Positions 384 through 8,619 of a stretch of 64,000 bases of DNA are shown piece after piece (within the stretch, counting starts at the first letter, position 1; the number at the start of each line of letters is the position of its first letter). The stretch comes from Bryobacteraceae bacterium. GTDB taxonomy: Bacteria > Acidobacteriota > Terriglobia > Bryobacterales > Bryobacteraceae. The position numbers and the translations under genes were made by a program. The notes below the pieces were generated by a model. The model had not been told where the DNA came from and did no database searches. It saw only the letters and a list, made by a program, of their open reading frames with translations. The stretch is taken from the NCBI GenBank assembly GCA_025928545.1, contig JAICJH010000024.1, positions 1-64,000 of the forward strand, in the 5' to 3' direction.

Positions 384-1937
384 TCAATTCTTGGGCAAAC
401 GGTCCAGAATCGCCGCGCTTTCCTCGATCTTGTCTTCCCGGTAGAGCACGCTGGCCAGCCCTTTGAGCGCATCTTCATTCTTGGGCTCCGCCTGCACTAC
501 TTTCTTGTAAATATCCTCAGCCATCGTGTATTCCTTGCGGTCCACAGCCTGTTTGGCAGCCTCAAGGTTGGTTTTCGTGTCAGCTCCTGGAGGCGGGGCG
601 GCGGTCCTGGCCGGTTTTGCTGCGTTCTCCGTTGCCGTTTGAATTTCCTTGCCAGCCGGAGGCGCTTTTTCAGCCGCACTCTCGCTCATCGTCCTGCGAA
701 TCTCATACGTGCCGCCAATGAGGATGGCGACTCCTACCACAGCCCAGAAGATCTTAGGGCCCAGATTCTTTATTTTCGAAGACTCCGCCGAATGACCGCC
801 GCGCTTCTCCCTCGGATTCTCGTGGTCCCGGCTCGCACGCGAACTTTGTGCCGGCGCCTCCGCGCTCTCCTGTGCCCGTGCCGCAGCCAGCCTCTTCGGC
901 AACTCCTGAGCCAGCTTATCCACCCCGGAAATCAGCCGGGAAAGATTATCTTCCGTACGCTGGTTATACTCACGCAACTCGTGCATCGCTTCCGCCTGCT
1001 GGCTCATATTATGTTCCAGCGCGGAAACCCTCTGCACCAGCTTCACCTGAATGTTTTTGACGAAAGTCTCAAGCGTCCGGACATGCTGTTCTTCAATCTC
1101 CGCCTGTAACTTGCCGGCCATGGACTGGAACCGTTTTGTTACCGCTTCCTCGATCATCTGCGGCAGCCGCGCTTTCAGATCCCGGCTGACGGCTCGACCC
1201 TTATCTACTCTCCCGCGCGGTGGAAAGTTGCCCGGATCCGTCAGACTTTCCGCAATCTCGGCGTCCAGCCAGCCGCGTGGATCTTCGGGAACAGGTTGTT
1301 CCCCGTCCTCCATTGCGACTACGCGTCCTTCTATTTCATCCAGGCGATCGAGGATCGGTCGGATTCCGTCCGCCATTTGGGACATGATTTCATAGTCGCG
1401 GTCGTCCAGATCGGCCGGCGCCTGTTCACGAATTCTTTCCCGGAAATGCGAACGGTCCATGGAAGCACCCCTGGACCGTCTTGATCGACCGGTTGCGGGT
1501 TCTTCCAGCAAATGCCGGTCTCTGCCATCGCGGCCAAGCTGCGGCGAGAAATACTGGCCTCCGTCCCGAACATAGCGGATTGCATCGATCAGATGCCTCG
1601 CAGGGCTGTTCTTCAGCAGGTAAGCGTCCGCTCCGGCCCGGACTACTTCGCGCACAATATCGTCGTCAATTGTTCCGGAGAGGATGATGGTTTTTGTGCC
1701 CAGCGCTTCTTCCCGGACCCTTCTCACCAGCTCGATTCCATGCAGTCCCGGAAGATTCAGATCCAGTACGACTACATCCGGCCGTTTACTGTGAATTTCC
1801 TGAAGTGCCGCATTGCCGTCGGAACAGCCGCCCACCACAGTAACTTCCGCCGTTGCCTGCAACACCGCCGCCATTCCATCGCGGCGCATCGAATCGCCGT
1901 CGGCTAATAGCACCGTTACTTTTGGGGTCTCTGGCAT
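384..1937 (-). CDS. Receiver-coiled coil-transmembrane-TPR hybrid protein
   Basis: The 517-residue product starts with a complete receiver domain (about 5-125): acidic D13 and D15, phospho-acceptor D59 in VVVLDLNLPG, S87 and K109. No DNA-binding domain follows. Residues 176-194 (LDDRDYEIMSQMADGIRP) look like the first helix of a LuxR HTH, but the sequence then changes into a long coiled coil (about 190-350). One hydrophobic helix (397-415) follows and then one or two TPR units (458-515). Read simply, a cytoplasmic receiver and coiled coil are tethered to the membrane with a small TPR module outside. It is the last gene of a minus-strand operon with a kinase, a NarL regulator and a coiled-coil protein. 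The domain order is unusual; function unknown, perhaps phosphorylation-controlled membrane assembly (inference). Confidence 0.85.
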   Translation of the reverse strand: MPETPKVTVLLADGDSMRRDGMAAVLQATAEVTVVGGCSDGNAALQEIHSKRPDVVVLDLNLPGLHGIELVRRVREEALGTKTIILSGTIDDDIVREVVRAGADAYLLKNSPARHLIDAIRYVRDGGQYFSPQLGRDGRDRHLLEEPATGRSRRSRGASMDRSHFRERIREQAPADLDDRDYEIMSQMADGIRPILDRLDEIEGRVVAMEDGEQPVPEDPRGWLDAEIAESLTDPGNFPPRGRVDKGRAVSRDLKARLPQMIEEAVTKRFQSMAGKLQAEIEEQHVRTLETFVKNIQVKLVQRVSALEHNMSQQAEAMHELREYNQRTEDNLSRLISGVDKLAQELPKRLAAARAQESAEAPAQSSRASRDHENPREKRGGHSAESSKIKNLGPKIFWAVVGVAILIGGTYEIRRTMSESAAEKAPPAGKEIQTATENAAKPARTAAPPPGADTKTNLEAAKQAVDRKEYTMAEDIYKKVVQAEPKNEDALKGLASVLYREDKIEESAAILDRLPKN

Positions 1938-2017
1938 GGCGTGGTCGTATTACATTCTAACCGAAGGCCGGCCGTTGCAGGAGCTTGTTCGCCCCTTGTT
2001 TCGGATGTGCCACAGCA

Positions 2018-2926
2018 TTAGCCTGCACTGGTCCGGCTTATGACAGACAGCCTCGGAACGTCTGGAACCTGCCCCTCCGCTTCACCCGAAATTCCGCTGG
2101 TTGCCGGCTTTTGTCCCTGCGGATTGGATAAGCGTTCCAGGGCTGTCAGGAGCCGAAGGATGTTCCGTTCGCTTTGCATCGAACAATCCCGCAGCTCTGC
2201 CACTGCCGCTGTCTGTGCTCCCATGTTGCTTTCGAGTTGGCTGATTCGCGGCGAGACACGGGTTTCGATCGACGCCACAATGGTATTGACGGTTTCTTTG
2301 TTTGCCGCCTTCATGCTCAGGTGAAATTGTTCTTCAATCGCGGCCAGCCGGTGTTCCAGGTCGCCGCTGATTTGCCGGTGCAGGCTGTCCCGAAGATCGT
2401 CGGCGAGATTTACCACGGATTCCACCGCGTATGTCGAACTCGCAACCTGCTGCCGCAGTTTCTCTACCTCATTCTGTTGCCGGTCCATCCGCGCCACTAC
2501 TTCTGTGAGGGCGCTTCGCCACTCGGAATCCAAAGCCTTGGGCGACACCATGGGCGCCGATGGTGGCCTGGCAGCCCGAGGCGCGAATGTGGCAGATCGA
2601 GTATTCGCGCCGGTGCTTTGGGGAGTGTTTGTGACTGTTGCGGCTTGCTGCCGGGAGGGGTAAGTCGCCTCTGTCGCTGGGGCGGGCTCACATTGTTGCG
2701 CCCGCGACAGTCTTTCCTCCAGTCGTTCCAGCCGATCGGTTACCGCATCTTTTTCGGAAACTCGCGGCTCGCGCGTTGTCTGCGCGTCTTCATGCTTTTT
2801 TCCGGCGCCGCGCGACTTCATGGTTGCCCGGTAAGACCCTCCCAGGCCCTCGCCCAGCCTGATGCTCGCGCCGAGGACGATTCCTCCGCCAACAGATGCA
2901 GCCAGAATGTGAAGGAGTTTTGCCAT
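2018..2926 (-). CDS. Membrane-anchored coiled-coil protein
   Basis: 302 residues with one N-terminal hydrophobic helix (about 5-24), a charged stretch with RLERLEERL, a Pro/Ala/Ser-rich linker (80-130) and a long coiled coil (130-270). The coiled coil matches that of the downstream hybrid protein: here ISQLESNMGAQTAAVAELR, there VSALEHNMSQQAEAMHELR, both followed by a Glu/Asn/Leu-rich helix. The N-terminal pattern also resembles the small divergent protein at 4550. I recognise no named family. It is the third gene of the operon, 28 bp after the NarL regulator and 80 bp before the hybrid, so hetero-oligomerisation of the coiled coils is a plausible role (inference). Confidence 0.8.
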   Translation of the reverse strand: MAKLLHILAASVGGGIVLGASIRLGEGLGGSYRATMKSRGAGKKHEDAQTTREPRVSEKDAVTDRLERLEERLSRAQQCEPAPATEATYPSRQQAATVTNTPQSTGANTRSATFAPRAARPPSAPMVSPKALDSEWRSALTEVVARMDRQQNEVEKLRQQVASSTYAVESVVNLADDLRDSLHRQISGDLEHRLAAIEEQFHLSMKAANKETVNTIVASIETRVSPRISQLESNMGAQTAAVAELRDCSMQSERNILRLLTALERLSNPQGQKPATSGISGEAEGQVPDVPRLSVISRTSAG

Positions 2927-2954
2927 ATCGGCTACAGCCTGCCTTGCTGCCGTG

Positions 2955-3626
2955 TCAATTCGGCGCCTTTCCCGATGTTTGGTGAATATTGCGCTGGATC
3001 GCGAAACGCACCAGTCCCGCGACGCTGTCTATTTTCAACTTTCGCATGACGTTGGAGCGATAGGTATCCACGGTTTTGGGGCTGATTCCGAGCGCCGCCG
3101 CTATGTCTTTGGGCCGCACGCCATCCACCAGCAATGAAAACACCGCGAACTCGCGCTTGCTCAGCGTAGCCAGCGGGTCGGGTTCCGCTTTTTGGAGGTC
3201 GTCCTTGCCCTCGATGCTTTCGCGGCGCAGCAGCGGCGTGAGATACTGGCCGCCGTCGCGGACATAGTTGATTGCGTCGAAAATATGCCGGGAGGGTCCG
3301 TCTTTCAGGACATAGGCGTCAGCTCCGCTGCGGAACAATTCCCGAATCGTACTTTGATCCCGGGTAATGGAAAGGACGATCAGACGGGTTTTGGATCCGG
3401 CCTCGCGTACCCGGCGGATCACCTCGAGTCCGCTCAGCTTCGGCATGTCGAGATCCAGCACCGCGAAATCCGGATTCCTCGCCAGAATCATGTCGAGAGC
3501 TTCTTGTCCGTCACTGCATTGCCCCAGCAGCGATACTTCCGGTCGTGCTTTGCAAAACGACGCCACACCCTCCCGTATAATGCCGTGATCGTCGGCAAGT
3601 ATCAGCGTGAGTGGGATCGCGTCCAT
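2955..3626 (-). CDS. NarL/FixJ-type response regulator
   Basis: 223 residues: receiver domain (about 6-124) with D12/D13, phospho-acceptor D58 in FAVLDLDMP, S86 and K108, and a LuxR-type HTH (about 153-215) with LSKREFAVFSLLVDG and ISPKTVDTYRSNVMRKL. All catalytic receiver positions are present, so it should be phosphorylated and bind DNA. It starts 21 bp after the histidine kinase stop, which makes that kinase its likely partner. Its receiver and post-receiver sequence are strikingly similar to the hybrid protein at 384-1937 (GADAYxLK, then YVRDGGQY), showing that the two are paralogues. Confidence 0.93.
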   Translation of the reverse strand: MDAIPLTLILADDHGIIREGVASFCKARPEVSLLGQCSDGQEALDMILARNPDFAVLDLDMPKLSGLEVIRRVREAGSKTRLIVLSITRDQSTIRELFRSGADAYVLKDGPSRHIFDAINYVRDGGQYLTPLLRRESIEGKDDLQKAEPDPLATLSKREFAVFSLLVDGVRPKDIAAALGISPKTVDTYRSNVMRKLKIDSVAGLVRFAIQRNIHQTSGKAPN

Positions 3627-3647
3627 AGTTTTTAAATACTCCGGCGC

Positions 3648-4418
3648 TCAGTCCGCCGCATACGGAACGCTGACTACTATTCTAGTCCCGCGGGGGCCGC
3701 TCGCTACGCTGGAATGGCCCCCCAGCGATCTGGCGTTTTCGCCGATGGCCCTCAATCCGATTCCCGTATTTCGCGACGCCGTCTCGAATCCATGGCCATT
3801 GTCCGCGACAGTCAGGATGAGCTGATCTCCCTCGGAGTGCAGGGAGATCGATGCCTCCGTAGCTCCGGAATGCCTGACGATATTCGAGATACATTCCTGC
3901 GCGCAGCGGTACAACTGCACCTTGGCTGCATGCGAGGGTTCTTCCGGCGGCGGGCATAAGTCCAATGTCAGGCGGAGGCCTCCGGCTAACCCGCTCGATT
4001 CCACAAGTGATTCGATGGCATGAGCCATGGACATTTCCTGCCATTCCGGCGGGTGAAGGCGATGCGATACCGCGCGTACCTGGCTAAGTGCCTGATCGGC
4101 CAGGGTCTGCAGTCTTCCGATGGTCGCTTTCGTCTCATCCAACCGTGCGGCATCGCCGCTTGCAGCAGTGCTTTCGCTGAGGATTTCGAGATGAAGCTTG
4201 ATTCCGGCCAGCGGTTGCCCCGCTCCGGCGTGCAACTCCCGCGCAATGCGGGAACGCTCACGCTCGAGCTCAGTCAGCAGATTGATTCCGGAACTGCGCG
4301 GCCAACGCTCAGCCACCAGATGGCTTAGTCGCGCCTTTTTTTCGCTGATTTTCGCCAGCATTTCCGCCCATGCCCCGAAATCGGGATAACTATTGGCGGA
4401 ATTTGGCCGGGAGTACAT
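3648..4418 (-). CDS. Soluble NarX/DesK-type histidine kinase
   Basis: 256 residues without signal peptide, transmembrane helix or recognisable sensor domain. A HisKA_3 dimerisation helix carries H63 in ERSRIARELHAGAGQPLAG; the HATPase_c domain has the N box (ECISNIVRHSGA, N179), the G1 box DNGHGF (206-211) and the G2 box GIGLRAI (219-225). The residue after the histidine is Ala, where most family members have Asp or Glu that assists phosphotransfer; this may alter kinase or phosphatase balance. It is the first gene of the operon and should phosphorylate the NarL regulator and perhaps the hybrid receiver. Input is unknown; the coiled-coil membrane proteins could supply it (inference). Confidence 0.9.
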   Translation of the reverse strand: MYSRPNSANSYPDFGAWAEMLAKISEKKARLSHLVAERWPRSSGINLLTELERERSRIARELHAGAGQPLAGIKLHLEILSESTAASGDAARLDETKATIGRLQTLADQALSQVRAVSHRLHPPEWQEMSMAHAIESLVESSGLAGGLRLTLDLCPPPEEPSHAAKVQLYRCAQECISNIVRHSGATEASISLHSEGDQLILTVADNGHGFETASRNTGIGLRAIGENARSLGGHSSVASGPRGTRIVVSVPYAAD

Positions 4419-4549
4419 AGGGAATATCCTATCAGTATGTCACTATTATATCGGGGTTTTTCTGTAGACTTTGTGACTAGTACTTCGGTGCCCTCCGGGG
4501 AGTACTACAGACTCTGTACTTCCCCCGTATCTGTCCCTATAATCGAGAC
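4419..4549. promoter_or_regulatory. Divergent control region between the kinase operon and the small coiled-coil gene
   Basis: 131 bp separate two divergently read genes. It contains a seven-base inverted repeat, TAGTACT and AGTACTA, flanking a GC-rich centre near 4480-4507, and two related blocks, AGACTTTGTGAC and AGACTCTGTAC, either side of it. Such symmetry suits a regulator dimer shared by both promoters, possibly the NarL regulator encoded here. No clear -35/-10 pair could be assigned. Confidence 0.35.
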
Positions 4550-4933
4550 TTGTTAAAACGAGCGCTGGCGGGGCTAGGTAAATCGCTTCTGATTGTCACG
4601 GGTGTTGGCTATGGCGTGCTCATCGCTATGGACGATATGCGCGATAATTCACAAACCAATGCGGCTGGGGATGATTCCGCACAGCACGTGCTCGCGCGTC
4701 TGAGCCGTATTGAGGAAAGACTGCTTCATTTGGAAACGGGCATTGATTGGGTTTCGCGTGCCGAAATGGAGGCCGCGATAGAACAACTTTCCGGCAGTAT
4801 GGCGAGCGATCTGGACTGCCGCTTTGACGTACAGAATCAGTCTGTTCAATCGCTGAGGACGATGATTGCCCGGACAGATGAACTGCTCGAACAGGTGATC
4901 GAAAACATCGAGTCGACCAGTCTGAGCGTCTGA
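4550..4933 (+). CDS. Small membrane-anchored coiled-coil protein
   Basis: 127 residues from a TTG start: one hydrophobic helix (about 8-27), a HVLARLSRIEERLLHLE helix and a second helical segment rich in Gln, Ser and Glu. The pattern of anchor, RLxRIEERL and late coiled coil parallels the 302-residue protein at 2018-2926, so it appears to be a shortened paralogue. It is transcribed divergently from the kinase operon. No enzymatic motif is present. The TTG start is chosen because it begins the helix cleanly; there is no alternative ATG upstream in frame. Confidence 0.7.
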   Translation: MLKRALAGLGKSLLIVTGVGYGVLIAMDDMRDNSQTNAAGDDSAQHVLARLSRIEERLLHLETGIDWVSRAEMEAAIEQLSGSMASDLDCRFDVQNQSVQSLRTMIARTDELLEQVIENIESTSLSV

Positions 4934-4964: not shown

Positions 4965-5711
4965 CTAGATTTTTACCTGGCTCAACGGCCGGTTTACCAA
5001 CGGTTGGGATGCGACGGGCATACGTTCCACAAAGAAGGATCGGGGCGGCTGCCAGAGCGGCGCGTTCTGTCGTTTGGCTGCGGACATATCGGCTGCTTCG
5101 GTGACTTTCGACCCCGGTGCAAGATTCCTAAGCCCATACAAGGCCAGTTCAAATCGATCTTTAACCCCTAGTTTCTGAAACAACCGGGACATATAGACCT
5201 TCACGGTTCCCTCCGAGATGCTGAGCTGGTAGGCGATCTCTTTGTTCTTCAGTCCCTGCGACAACAAAGCGACCAACTGGCCTTCCCGTCGTGTGAGAGA
5301 GTAGCTGTGCGCCGTCATAATGCTGTCGGTCAGCGCCTTTTCGAACCATAGTTCACCTTCGTTTACGCGCGTCAAACAACGCACCAGCGTTTCCACCGGT
5401 AAGGTTCGGCGTAATATGCCTCGCACCCCCAGGCTCATCGACTGCAGAGCCAGTTCCGTTGAAATCGCGTGTACCCACAGTACGATGCGCGATGTGGAGA
5501 CCGCCTCGCGAAGTCCGCTCAGCACGGAGAAAGTGACATCTGCCGTCAGATCGACCAGCAGAATATCCGGCTGAAGTGTTTCAACCTGTTCTCGAAGATC
5601 TTCCAGCCGGGGGCAGCAGCCCACCAGATTCAGCCCCGGCGCATTCTCAAGGATGCGCCGAAGGCCCTCCGCCAAGATCGGTTCGTCAGCGCACAGCAGC
5701 ACGTTCGACAT
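4965..5711 (-). CDS. LuxR-type response regulator with atypical receiver
   Basis: 248 residues: receiver domain (1-118) and LuxR HTH (about 139-200, SLTRREGQLVALLSQG and ISEGTVKVYMSRLFQKLG), with a short C-terminal tail. D54 (ILLVDLTAD) is in the phospho-acceptor position, but the usual Thr/Ser after the fourth strand is not evident (IVLWVHA) and the conserved Lys is replaced by Arg (GILRRTLP). It may respond weakly or not at all to phosphorylation. It is convergent with the small coiled-coil gene and has no adjacent kinase other than the one at 3648. AT-rich DNA upstream should hold its promoter. Confidence 0.88.
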   Translation of the reverse strand: MSNVLLCADEPILAEGLRRILENAPGLNLVGCCPRLEDLREQVETLQPDILLVDLTADVTFSVLSGLREAVSTSRIVLWVHAISTELALQSMSLGVRGILRRTLPVETLVRCLTRVNEGELWFEKALTDSIMTAHSYSLTRREGQLVALLSQGLKNKEIAYQLSISEGTVKVYMSRLFQKLGVKDRFELALYGLRNLAPGSKVTEAADMSAAKRQNAPLWQPPRSFFVERMPVASQPLVNRPLSQVKI

Positions 5712-8153: not shown

Positions 8154-8330
8154 ATGAAAAACATGATTCAGAATTTCGTACGAGACGAGCAGGGCCAGGA
8201 TCTTATCGAGTACACGCTTTTGATGGCGTTCATCGCTCTGGCATCGGCGGCCATTTTTATCGGCGCAGGTACCAGCGTGTCGAAGATCTGGAGCAGCGCC
8301 AGCGTTCAGTTGTCGACTGCCGCCTCCTAG
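8154..8330 (+). CDS. flp: Flp/Fap type IVb pilin 1
   Basis: 58 residues. The type IVb prepilin motif is exact: cleavage expected after G14, followed by QDLIEY with Glu at +5 and Tyr at +6, then the hydrophobic helix TLLMAFIALASAAIF. The rest is short and Ser/Ala-rich, as in Flp pilins. It is the major-subunit candidate of the Tad pilus encoded downstream, processed by a TadV-type peptidase such as that at 34590. A purine-rich GGACGAGGAC block precedes the ATG. A second, nearly identical pilin follows 112 bp later. Confidence 0.93.
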   Translation: MKNMIQNFVRDEQGQDLIEYTLLMAFIALASAAIFIGAGTSVSKIWSSASVQLSTAAS

Positions 8331-8352: not shown

Positions 8353-8376
8353 CGCCGCCGGCTGATGCCGTCGGCG
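8353..8376 (+). terminator. Hairpin between the two pilin genes
   Basis: A ten-base stem with one mismatch (CGCCGCCGGC, loop TGAT, GCCGTCGGCG) lies 22 bp after the first pilin stop. No T run follows, so it is more likely an RNA-stabilising or attenuating structure than a full terminator. It may raise pilin transcript levels relative to the assembly genes (inference). Confidence 0.4.
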
Positions 8377-8442
8377 CCCCGCGATGCGGGCTCGGTTTAC
8401 GCCGGGGAAGGATGGCTTTTCGGTTTGAGAGGAGATGAATCA

Positions 8443-8619
8443 GTGAAGAATTTTATTTCGAATTTCTTAAATGACGAACAGGGACAGGACCTGATCGAGT
8501 ACACGCTGTTGATGGCGTTCATCGCGTTGGCATCGGCGGCAATCTTTATCGGTGCGGGCGGCAGCGTCGCCAACATCTGGAGCTCAGCCAGCACGCAGCT
8601 TTCGACCGCTGCGAGCTAA
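8443..8619 (+). CDS. flp: Flp/Fap type IVb pilin 2
   Basis: 58 residues from a GTG start at 8443, chosen because it gives exactly the same length as pilin 1 and has GAGGAG just upstream; a longer reading from 8365 would add an N terminus no pilin has. The product is almost identical to pilin 1: DEQGQDLIEYTLLMAF is the same, with differences in the first ten residues (VKNFISNFLN) and near the C terminus (GGSVANIW). Tandem duplication of the gene is clear. It may form mixed pili or serve as a minor subunit. Confidence 0.9.
   Translation: MKNFISNFLNDEQGQDLIEYTLLMAFIALASAAIFIGAGGSVANIWSSASTQLSTAAS

Follow-up and report, generated by a model that had tools for sequence, protein, structure and literature searches.

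In Caulobacter, the histidine kinase scaffold PodJ combines cytoplasmic coiled coils with one transmembrane helix and periplasmic tetratricopeptide repeats (TPR), and it regulates the kinase PleC, which carries PAS domains; as far as the source describes it, PodJ has no receiver, and it has a peptidoglycan-binding domain and an intrinsically disordered region (PMC8980812). Receivers without one or more of five residues (two acidic residues, Asp, Ser/Thr and Lys) are the pseudo-receivers of atypical response regulators, in the definition given by PMC12632262. In NarX/NarL and DesK/DesR, a HisKA_3 kinase is paired with a regulator of the NarL/FixJ type. The FimV-FimL-PilG axis links a TPR/coiled-coil membrane protein with a receiver, which there is a separate protein. 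Here we describe a locus in a stretch of 64,000 nucleotides (the window; positions 1 to 64,000 of contig JAICJH010000024.1, assembly GCA_025928545.1, from a Bryobacteraceae bacterium) that encodes a soluble HisKA_3 kinase, a NarL regulator, membrane coiled-coil proteins and a 517-residue protein with a receiver and TPR in one chain (Table 1).

Both catalytic partners belong to the same families as those of NarX/NarL and DesK/DesR. Unlike in these systems, the kinase is soluble, has no known sensor domain and is without the Asp of the DxxxQ motif, and extra membrane coiled-coil genes accompany the pair. Compared by architecture, the 517-residue protein is predicted to have the PodJ-type layout, with the coiled coil inside, then a transmembrane helix, and the TPR outside. 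It differs from PodJ in its receiver, and Pfam matched no peptidoglycan-binding domain in it. PleC differs from the window kinase in its PAS domains and is of a different kinase type. The receiver of the 517-residue protein resembles those of atypical response regulators in that a catalytic residue is missing; it differs in being joined to a membrane coiled-coil/TPR protein, in the helix-turn-helix (HTH) stub left behind it and in having four orthologues that are complete. No description of this arrangement was found in the literature by title or start of abstract, a coverage that mostly leaves subscription journals outside. The domains are known and the arrangement is new to us; a soluble signalling pathway seems to be attached here to the cell envelope in a little-known manner.

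The 517-residue fusion and its receiver

As judged from its alignments, the 517-residue protein arose by in-frame fusion, which joined a duplicated NarL receiver and an HTH stub to an older anchored protein with a coiled coil, a transmembrane helix and TPR. Its receiver is 50% identical to that of the neighbouring NarL regulator. Downstream of the receiver, LDDRDYEIMSQMADGIRP aligns with the start of the NarL HTH, LSKREFAVFSLLVDGVRP, with an hhalign probability of 81.5-83.1%. The alignment score is 31.1; none of 200 column shuffles exceeded 17.3, and six other stretches of the fusion scored 6.7-12.6. Pfam did not match GerE in the 517-residue protein, and of the HTH the first helix alone remains. 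Past this stub, the fusion aligns with receiver-less anchored coiled-coil-transmembrane-TPR proteins of three genomes, G151, G178 and G188 (PILDRLDEIEGRVVAME versus PLLDRLKSVESRIVEME). The gene for the receiver-less protein lies about 0.8 kb from a kinase-NarL pair in G178 and about 3.3 kb from one in G188; in G151 the gene and the pair are on different contigs. In G039, from another family, about 1.3 kb separate a coiled-coil-transmembrane-TPR gene from an end-cut kinase fragment and a NarL orthologue, and the receiver-less relatives in G032, G106 and G217 sit in a different gene context. The receiver was absent from all eight relatives outside the genus that were read (these seven and G021). 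The wider homologue searches used a receiver-less profile and are therefore uninformative on the presence of the receiver. In a receiver tree that included three of the six other regulators of the window genome, the fusion receivers formed one clade (support 100/98), placed outside the NarL orthologues of the family (82/84), although this placement may be due to long-branch attraction. Receiver-less coiled-coil-transmembrane-TPR proteins were seen in two other genera (L136 3004-3843, L135 8016-8627 and L059 9117-10064; G and L numbers are our handles for genomes and loci), where they adjoin two genes that, read by eye from their sequence, resemble those for a pyridine nucleotide-disulphide oxidoreductase and a ROK protein.

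The fusion is conserved in its genus. A homologue search with the part from the HTH stub to the TPR covered 61 genomes and matched 16 of the 19 from the same genus, the window's own included. In 15 of these 19 the fusion is a single open reading frame (ORF) of 478-658 residues; in G008, a genome that is 83% complete, it is split between two frames, possibly by an assembly error. It was not found in the remaining three (G007, G011 and G013), of which G011 has the kinase and NarL. The order kinase-NarL-coiled coil-receiver/TPR is kept in 10 of the 15 genomes with an intact fusion. G005 has three of the four genes, the middle coiled-coil gene being missing, G006 has NarL and the fusion only, and in G003, G015 and G016 the fusion has no adjoining kinase or NarL on the contig stretches examined. 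A kinase orthologue was not detected in five fusion-bearing genomes (G003, G006, G015, G016 and, with its broken fusion, G008). An earlier, sequence-only reading of this DNA had named the conservation of gene order in relatives and the status of the receiver and TPR as one gene, free of a frameshift, as points to check, and both were found. The 15 intact orthologues also led us to reject a frameshift or a chance ORF as the origin of the 517-residue protein. Two kinase-less genomes carry changed fusions, with Asp to Glu at the phosphorylation site in G016 and the frame-split gene in G008 (L052 5290-6867 and L055 8552-9963), and one genus match, G010:C64, contains two in-frame stops.

The five receiver residues of the window fusion are D, G, D, S and K, with Gly at the metal-binding second acidic position. 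By the published definition, 11 of the 15 fusion receivers, that of the window included, are pseudo-receivers, and none of their 12 NarL partners is, all 12 being complete. Only the receivers of G001, G002, G005 and G010 have all five residues. The losses are Ser/Thr to Ala in nine receivers, the second acidic residue to Gly or Ala in three (window included) and Asp to Glu in one (G016), while the Asp is kept in 14 of 15 and the Lys and the first acidic residue in all 15. When fusion and NarL receivers of the same genome are compared, mean identity is 28% in helix alpha1, 81% in beta5, 72% in the beta5-alpha5 loop and 64% in alpha5, and beta2 (22%) is the only segment more diverged than alpha1. 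Within each family, fusion and NarL, alpha1 is kept (about 80%). Helix alpha1 is a contact to the kinase in the DesK-DesR complex described in PMC5231405. By these segment identities, beta5 and alpha5 stayed alike and the kinase-contact helix diverged.

The kinase-NarL core, its coiled coils and its promoter

The ORF calls reproduced the layout of the earlier reading, that is, four minus-strand genes with gaps of 21, 28 and 80 bp and a divergent coiled-coil gene on the plus strand. Pfam scores above the gathering cut-offs were obtained for the kinase (HisKA_3, 48.1 bits; HATPase_c, 43.1), the NarL regulator (Response_reg, 71.8; GerE, 62.8) and the 517-residue protein (Response_reg, 79.5; TPR_19, 31.1), and no family reached its cut-off for the 302- and 127-residue coiled-coil proteins. 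Of 250 genomes of the order, 54 were matched by a kinase profile at E<=1e-45; the matches lie at 56 places, of which 11 are in this genus. In a class-wide sample, matches outside the order scored about 2e-50 to 1e-45, like non-module kinases. Outside the genus there are 45 such places, and all but the three weakest (G080, G156 and G205) were inspected, which makes 42 (20 + 20 + L133 and L134). An adjacent NarL orthologue was present at 36 of the 42, across 17 genera, and a divergent homologue of the 127-residue protein at 31 of these 36. At the six places without NarL the divergent gene is missing as well, and other HisKA_3 kinases stand there. Within the genus, the divergent gene is found at 7 of 12 kinase-bearing loci. 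Overall, 84 genera of the order were sampled and 18 of them have the kinase-NarL core; its 48 loci include 38 with the divergent membrane coiled-coil gene. This core is older and wider than the fusion, and for that reason an account limited to the 517-residue protein was rejected.

The window kinase has HisKA_3 and HATPase domains with the phospho-acceptor His in the box IARELHAGAGQ, in which AxxxQ and not DxxxQ follows the His. All 11 kinases examined in the genus have Ala or Ser after the His, and 35 of 36 module kinases from outside it have Thr, Ser or Ala; the Asp is thus missing in 46 of 47. It is kept in all 14 other HisKA_3 kinases compared, eight of the window genome and six at non-module loci. 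The phosphatase activity of NarX requires DxxxQ, according to PMC3510030, and PMC5231405 describes a phosphatase state of DesK in which this Asp forms a bridge to the regulator. On these grounds the module kinases would probably have a weak phosphatase activity or none. No transmembrane helix was found in the kinase orthologues by hydropathy.

The three coiled coils of the locus are homologous by profile alignment. The fusion coiled coil scored 107.3 in profile comparison with that of the 302-residue protein and 36.5 with that of the divergent protein, and the latter two scored 36.8 with each other; the best of 100 heptad-preserving shuffles reached 31.2, 22.0 and 24.6, respectively. As all three comparisons beat all of their shuffles, mere heptad periodicity was rejected as the source of the similarity, and the earlier reading was right to call the divergent gene a coiled-coil paralogue. 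Neither the G010 protein, which is short, nor L183, in which there is an internal deletion, entered the profiles. The divergent proteins carry a hydrophobic anchor at the N terminus, and their C-terminal coiled coil is conserved. In all 15 fusions, Lys and Arg are more numerous before the transmembrane helix than after it (5-8 versus 0-4), and the receiver and coiled coil are predicted to be inside and the TPR outside. Two more proteins of the window genome carry the coiled-coil module in other contexts (L056 8869-9780 and L057 9338-10042), and one of them ends in a four-Cys tail that looks by eye like a zinc ribbon.

The kinase and the divergent gene share a promoter region that is rich in GTAC sites. 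We compared 220 bp centred between the two starts at 38 loci with 311 control upstream regions; the 38 loci are related and so are not 38 independent cases. The mean number of GTAC sites was 3.29 at the divergent promoters and 0.48 in the controls. At least three sites were present at 76% of the former and 1.3% of the latter, and at least two at 32 of the 38. The 125 sites observed compare with 18.7 expected from the composition of the same loci. The GTAC cluster resembles the TACYNMT half-sites of NarL-type regulators, and the simplest reading would be that NarL autoregulates the divergent promoter. A genome-wide search for GTAC clusters gave 57 matches per strand, and we analysed the matches listed together with two from a stricter pattern and the first 12 kb of the window. 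In this set of listed matches and window sequence, a script delimited 45 merged clusters, 33 coding and 12 intergenic. Eight of the 11 intergenic clusters outside the window, again among the matches listed, have a called gene within 400 bp, and at six of these eight (or for six of nine genes, as one cluster has two) the gene looks exported: Ig-like, an SdrD_B neighbour, PEP-CTERM, kumamolisin and others. The background by the same rough rule was 59 of 175 (P = 0.02-0.045, with categories chosen post hoc). It is possible that these clusters mark a regulon, but this is a lead only, because the categories were chosen after looking.

Proposed function and rival explanations

We give about an even chance to the reading that the locus encodes a PodJ-like membrane coiled-coil/TPR scaffold or sensor for the soluble kinase-NarL pair, one that has captured a receiver for docking. 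Homologous coiled-coil membrane proteins would form a family that holds the soluble kinase and NarL at the inner membrane, with the divergent 127-residue protein as the ancestral adaptor. The coiled-coil-transmembrane-TPR proteins would add an outer face, whose TPR may report on an envelope or surface component, and the state of the TPR would reach the kinase via the transmembrane helix and the coiled coil, in a manner similar to that of PodJ with PleC. Within the genus, one such protein acquired the receiver and the leading HTH helix from a duplicate of the NarL regulator. The most likely role of the captured receiver would be docking, either of the kinase or, via the shared beta5/alpha5 face, of NarL, and it may be phosphorylated in some species only. 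With a kinase that probably has little or no phosphatase activity, recruitment and release may set the output, and not a kinase/phosphatase switch. A bolder formulation, which we hold to be less likely than not, is that of a so far undescribed three-part system of one acidobacterial order, made up of an Asp-less kinase, NarL and divergent membrane coiled-coil adaptors, with one GTAC-type operator. The adaptors would replace the kinase sensor, and one of them would have captured a receiver as a dock for kinase or regulator.

Several observations weigh against the scaffold. Interaction, localisation and phosphotransfer are all predictions here. The AlphaFold2 model of the fusion (helix 244-359, transmembrane helix 392-416, TPR 454-511), built on two sequences, is poor, receiver included (mean predicted local distance difference test score 54), and we used only these three elements. 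The divergent coiled-coil gene is not strictly obligate. It is missing at 5 of the 36 NarL-bearing loci outside the genus, only one of which (L198) is cut by a contig end, and at 5 of the 12 loci within it, and kinship among loci inflates the counts. An N-terminal anchor is missing, in the ORFs as called, from 3 of 10 orthologues of the 302-residue protein in the genus (G014, G017 and G018). The kinases outside the genus are longer ORFs (280-382 residues) whose N-terminal region matches no Pfam family in the six scanned, so that sensing by these kinases themselves is possible; a single module kinase, that of L187 in another family, retains the Asp. Fewer than two GTAC sites are present at 6 of the 38 divergent promoters, including the three g64 loci, and of eight palindromes compared, CTAG (5.1 versus 0.8 per kb) and ACGT (6.5 versus 2.5) are also raised. 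Finally, the fusion is kept in kinase-less genomes and therefore must have other partners there.

The earlier reading had proposed that a single kinase phosphorylates both receivers, and that the system could link the assembly of membrane proteins to gene control. Its coherent, conserved signalling locus, with receiver, coiled coil, transmembrane helix and TPR in one chain, stood up to the comparison; the branched phosphotransfer, in which the membrane receiver would act as a phosphate sink or a second output, did not, and we regard it as rather unlikely. The retained Asp, Lys and first acidic residue, the four complete orthologues and the beta5-alpha5 loop shared with NarL speak for it, and for a kinase with little phosphatase activity a sink would be an advantage. 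Non-cognate regulators that sequester kinases have been described (PMC10368727), which also counts in its favour. However, most of the receivers, that of the window included, are incomplete, alpha1 has diverged, and the fusion persists in the five genomes without a kinase, once with Asp replaced by Glu and once as a split gene. One kinase with two receivers is possible for the four species with complete receivers. If receiver decay and persistence without the kinase are instead stressed, the 517-residue protein could be a structural envelope protein with a vestigial receiver and the kinase and NarL mere neighbours, the more so as its coiled coil and receiver are conserved to about the same degree (72% mean pairwise identity for the coiled coil). 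We consider this improbable: the four-gene order is kept in most genomes with the fusion, receiver-less relatives lie by the same pair in another genus, and the receiver segments alpha1, alpha4, beta5 and alpha5 are 80-90% identical across orthologues, unlike a vestige.

The neighbourhood offers a further explanation. Beyond the divergent gene are genes for a LuxR-type regulator, a PilZ protein, a 571-residue protein without a family, a Flp-type pilin (below the Pfam cut-off) and CpaB, and by Flp and CpaB this is a Tad pilus locus, which was not part of the earlier observation. Polar development, in which PodJ has a part, includes Tad-type pili. The locus might mainly regulate or assist the neighbouring pilus, with the TPR proteins as assembly or localisation factors and NarL controlling pilus genes, and Flp and/or CpaB adjoins 7 of the 12 genus loci with NarL and the fusion (G000, G001, G002, G004, G006, G009 and G010). 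Such a role seems doubtful to us, and distinctly so, as Tad genes are missing from about 20 kb at four genus loci (G012, G014, G017 and G018; the contig of G005 is too short) and none was recognised within 7 kb of 20 modules outside the genus, in a scan against window proteins only. Moreover, the intergenic GTAC cluster is missing upstream of PilZ, which has one GTAC, and of Flp, where three lie inside the upstream pilin gene.

If the scaffold reading is true, the locus would be a second, independently built version of the PodJ idea, in which a membrane coiled-coil/TPR scaffold brings the outside to a kinase, here a soluble one, across many genera of one soil-bacterial order. It would also document the stepwise recycling of a transcription-factor receiver: a regulator was duplicated, its HTH cut after the first helix and the rest fused to a scaffold, and residues for phosphorylation were then lost repeatedly. 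The consistent loss of the Asp from DxxxQ, beside intact HisKA_3 kinases of the same genome, would be a natural test of that residue.

Features of the window and neighbouring genes

Table 1. Features of the locus and its surroundings (window positions unless an L number is given).
Feature	Position	Strand	Basis or remark
tRNA-Leu	204-290
Fusion protein, 517 aa: receiver, HTH stub, coiled coil, transmembrane helix, TPR	384-1937	-
Fusion C-terminal TPR, residues 454-511, predicted outside	405-578	-	Pfam, model
Fusion transmembrane helix, residues 392-416	690-764	-	Model, Lys and Arg counts
Fusion conserved coiled-coil module, residues 252-350	888-1184	-	Inside predicted 116-residue helix (244-359)
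Fusion HTH stub, remnant of first NarL HTH helix, residues 176-194, LDDRDYEIMSQMADGIRP	1356-1412	-	Profile alignment
Fusion receiver domain, residues 8-124	1566-1916	-	Second acidic residue is Gly
Membrane-anchored coiled-coil protein, 302 aa	2018-2926	-	N-terminal hydrophobic anchor, C-terminal coiled-coil module
NarL-type response regulator, 223 aa	2955-3626	-	ORF, Pfam; receiver catalytic residues intact, GerE HTH
Soluble HisKA_3 histidine kinase, 256 aa	3648-4418	-	ORF, Pfam; sensor domain not recognised
Divergent promoter region, 131 bp	4419-4549		Three GTAC sites, putative operator cluster, kept in related loci
Divergent membrane coiled-coil protein, 127 aa	4550-4933	+	TTG start; commonest conserved partner of the kinase-NarL pair
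Second NarL-like (LuxR-type) regulator, degenerate receiver	4965-5711	-	Response_reg 25.7 bits, below cut-off of 30.2
Intergenic GTAC clusters before genes for proteins that look exported	L245 2426-2493; L246 2187-2485; L248 2132-2175; L249 2362-2384; L252 2320-2352; L272 1950-1993

Several members of the genus retain the second NarL-like regulator at the Tad locus, next to PilZ and a multi-pass protein, and it is probably tied to that locus rather than to the kinase-NarL module. Two tandem Flp-type pilin genes (8154-8330 and 8365-8619) precede CpaB; the shorter encodes 58 residues, falls under the usual ORF length limits and was read by eye.

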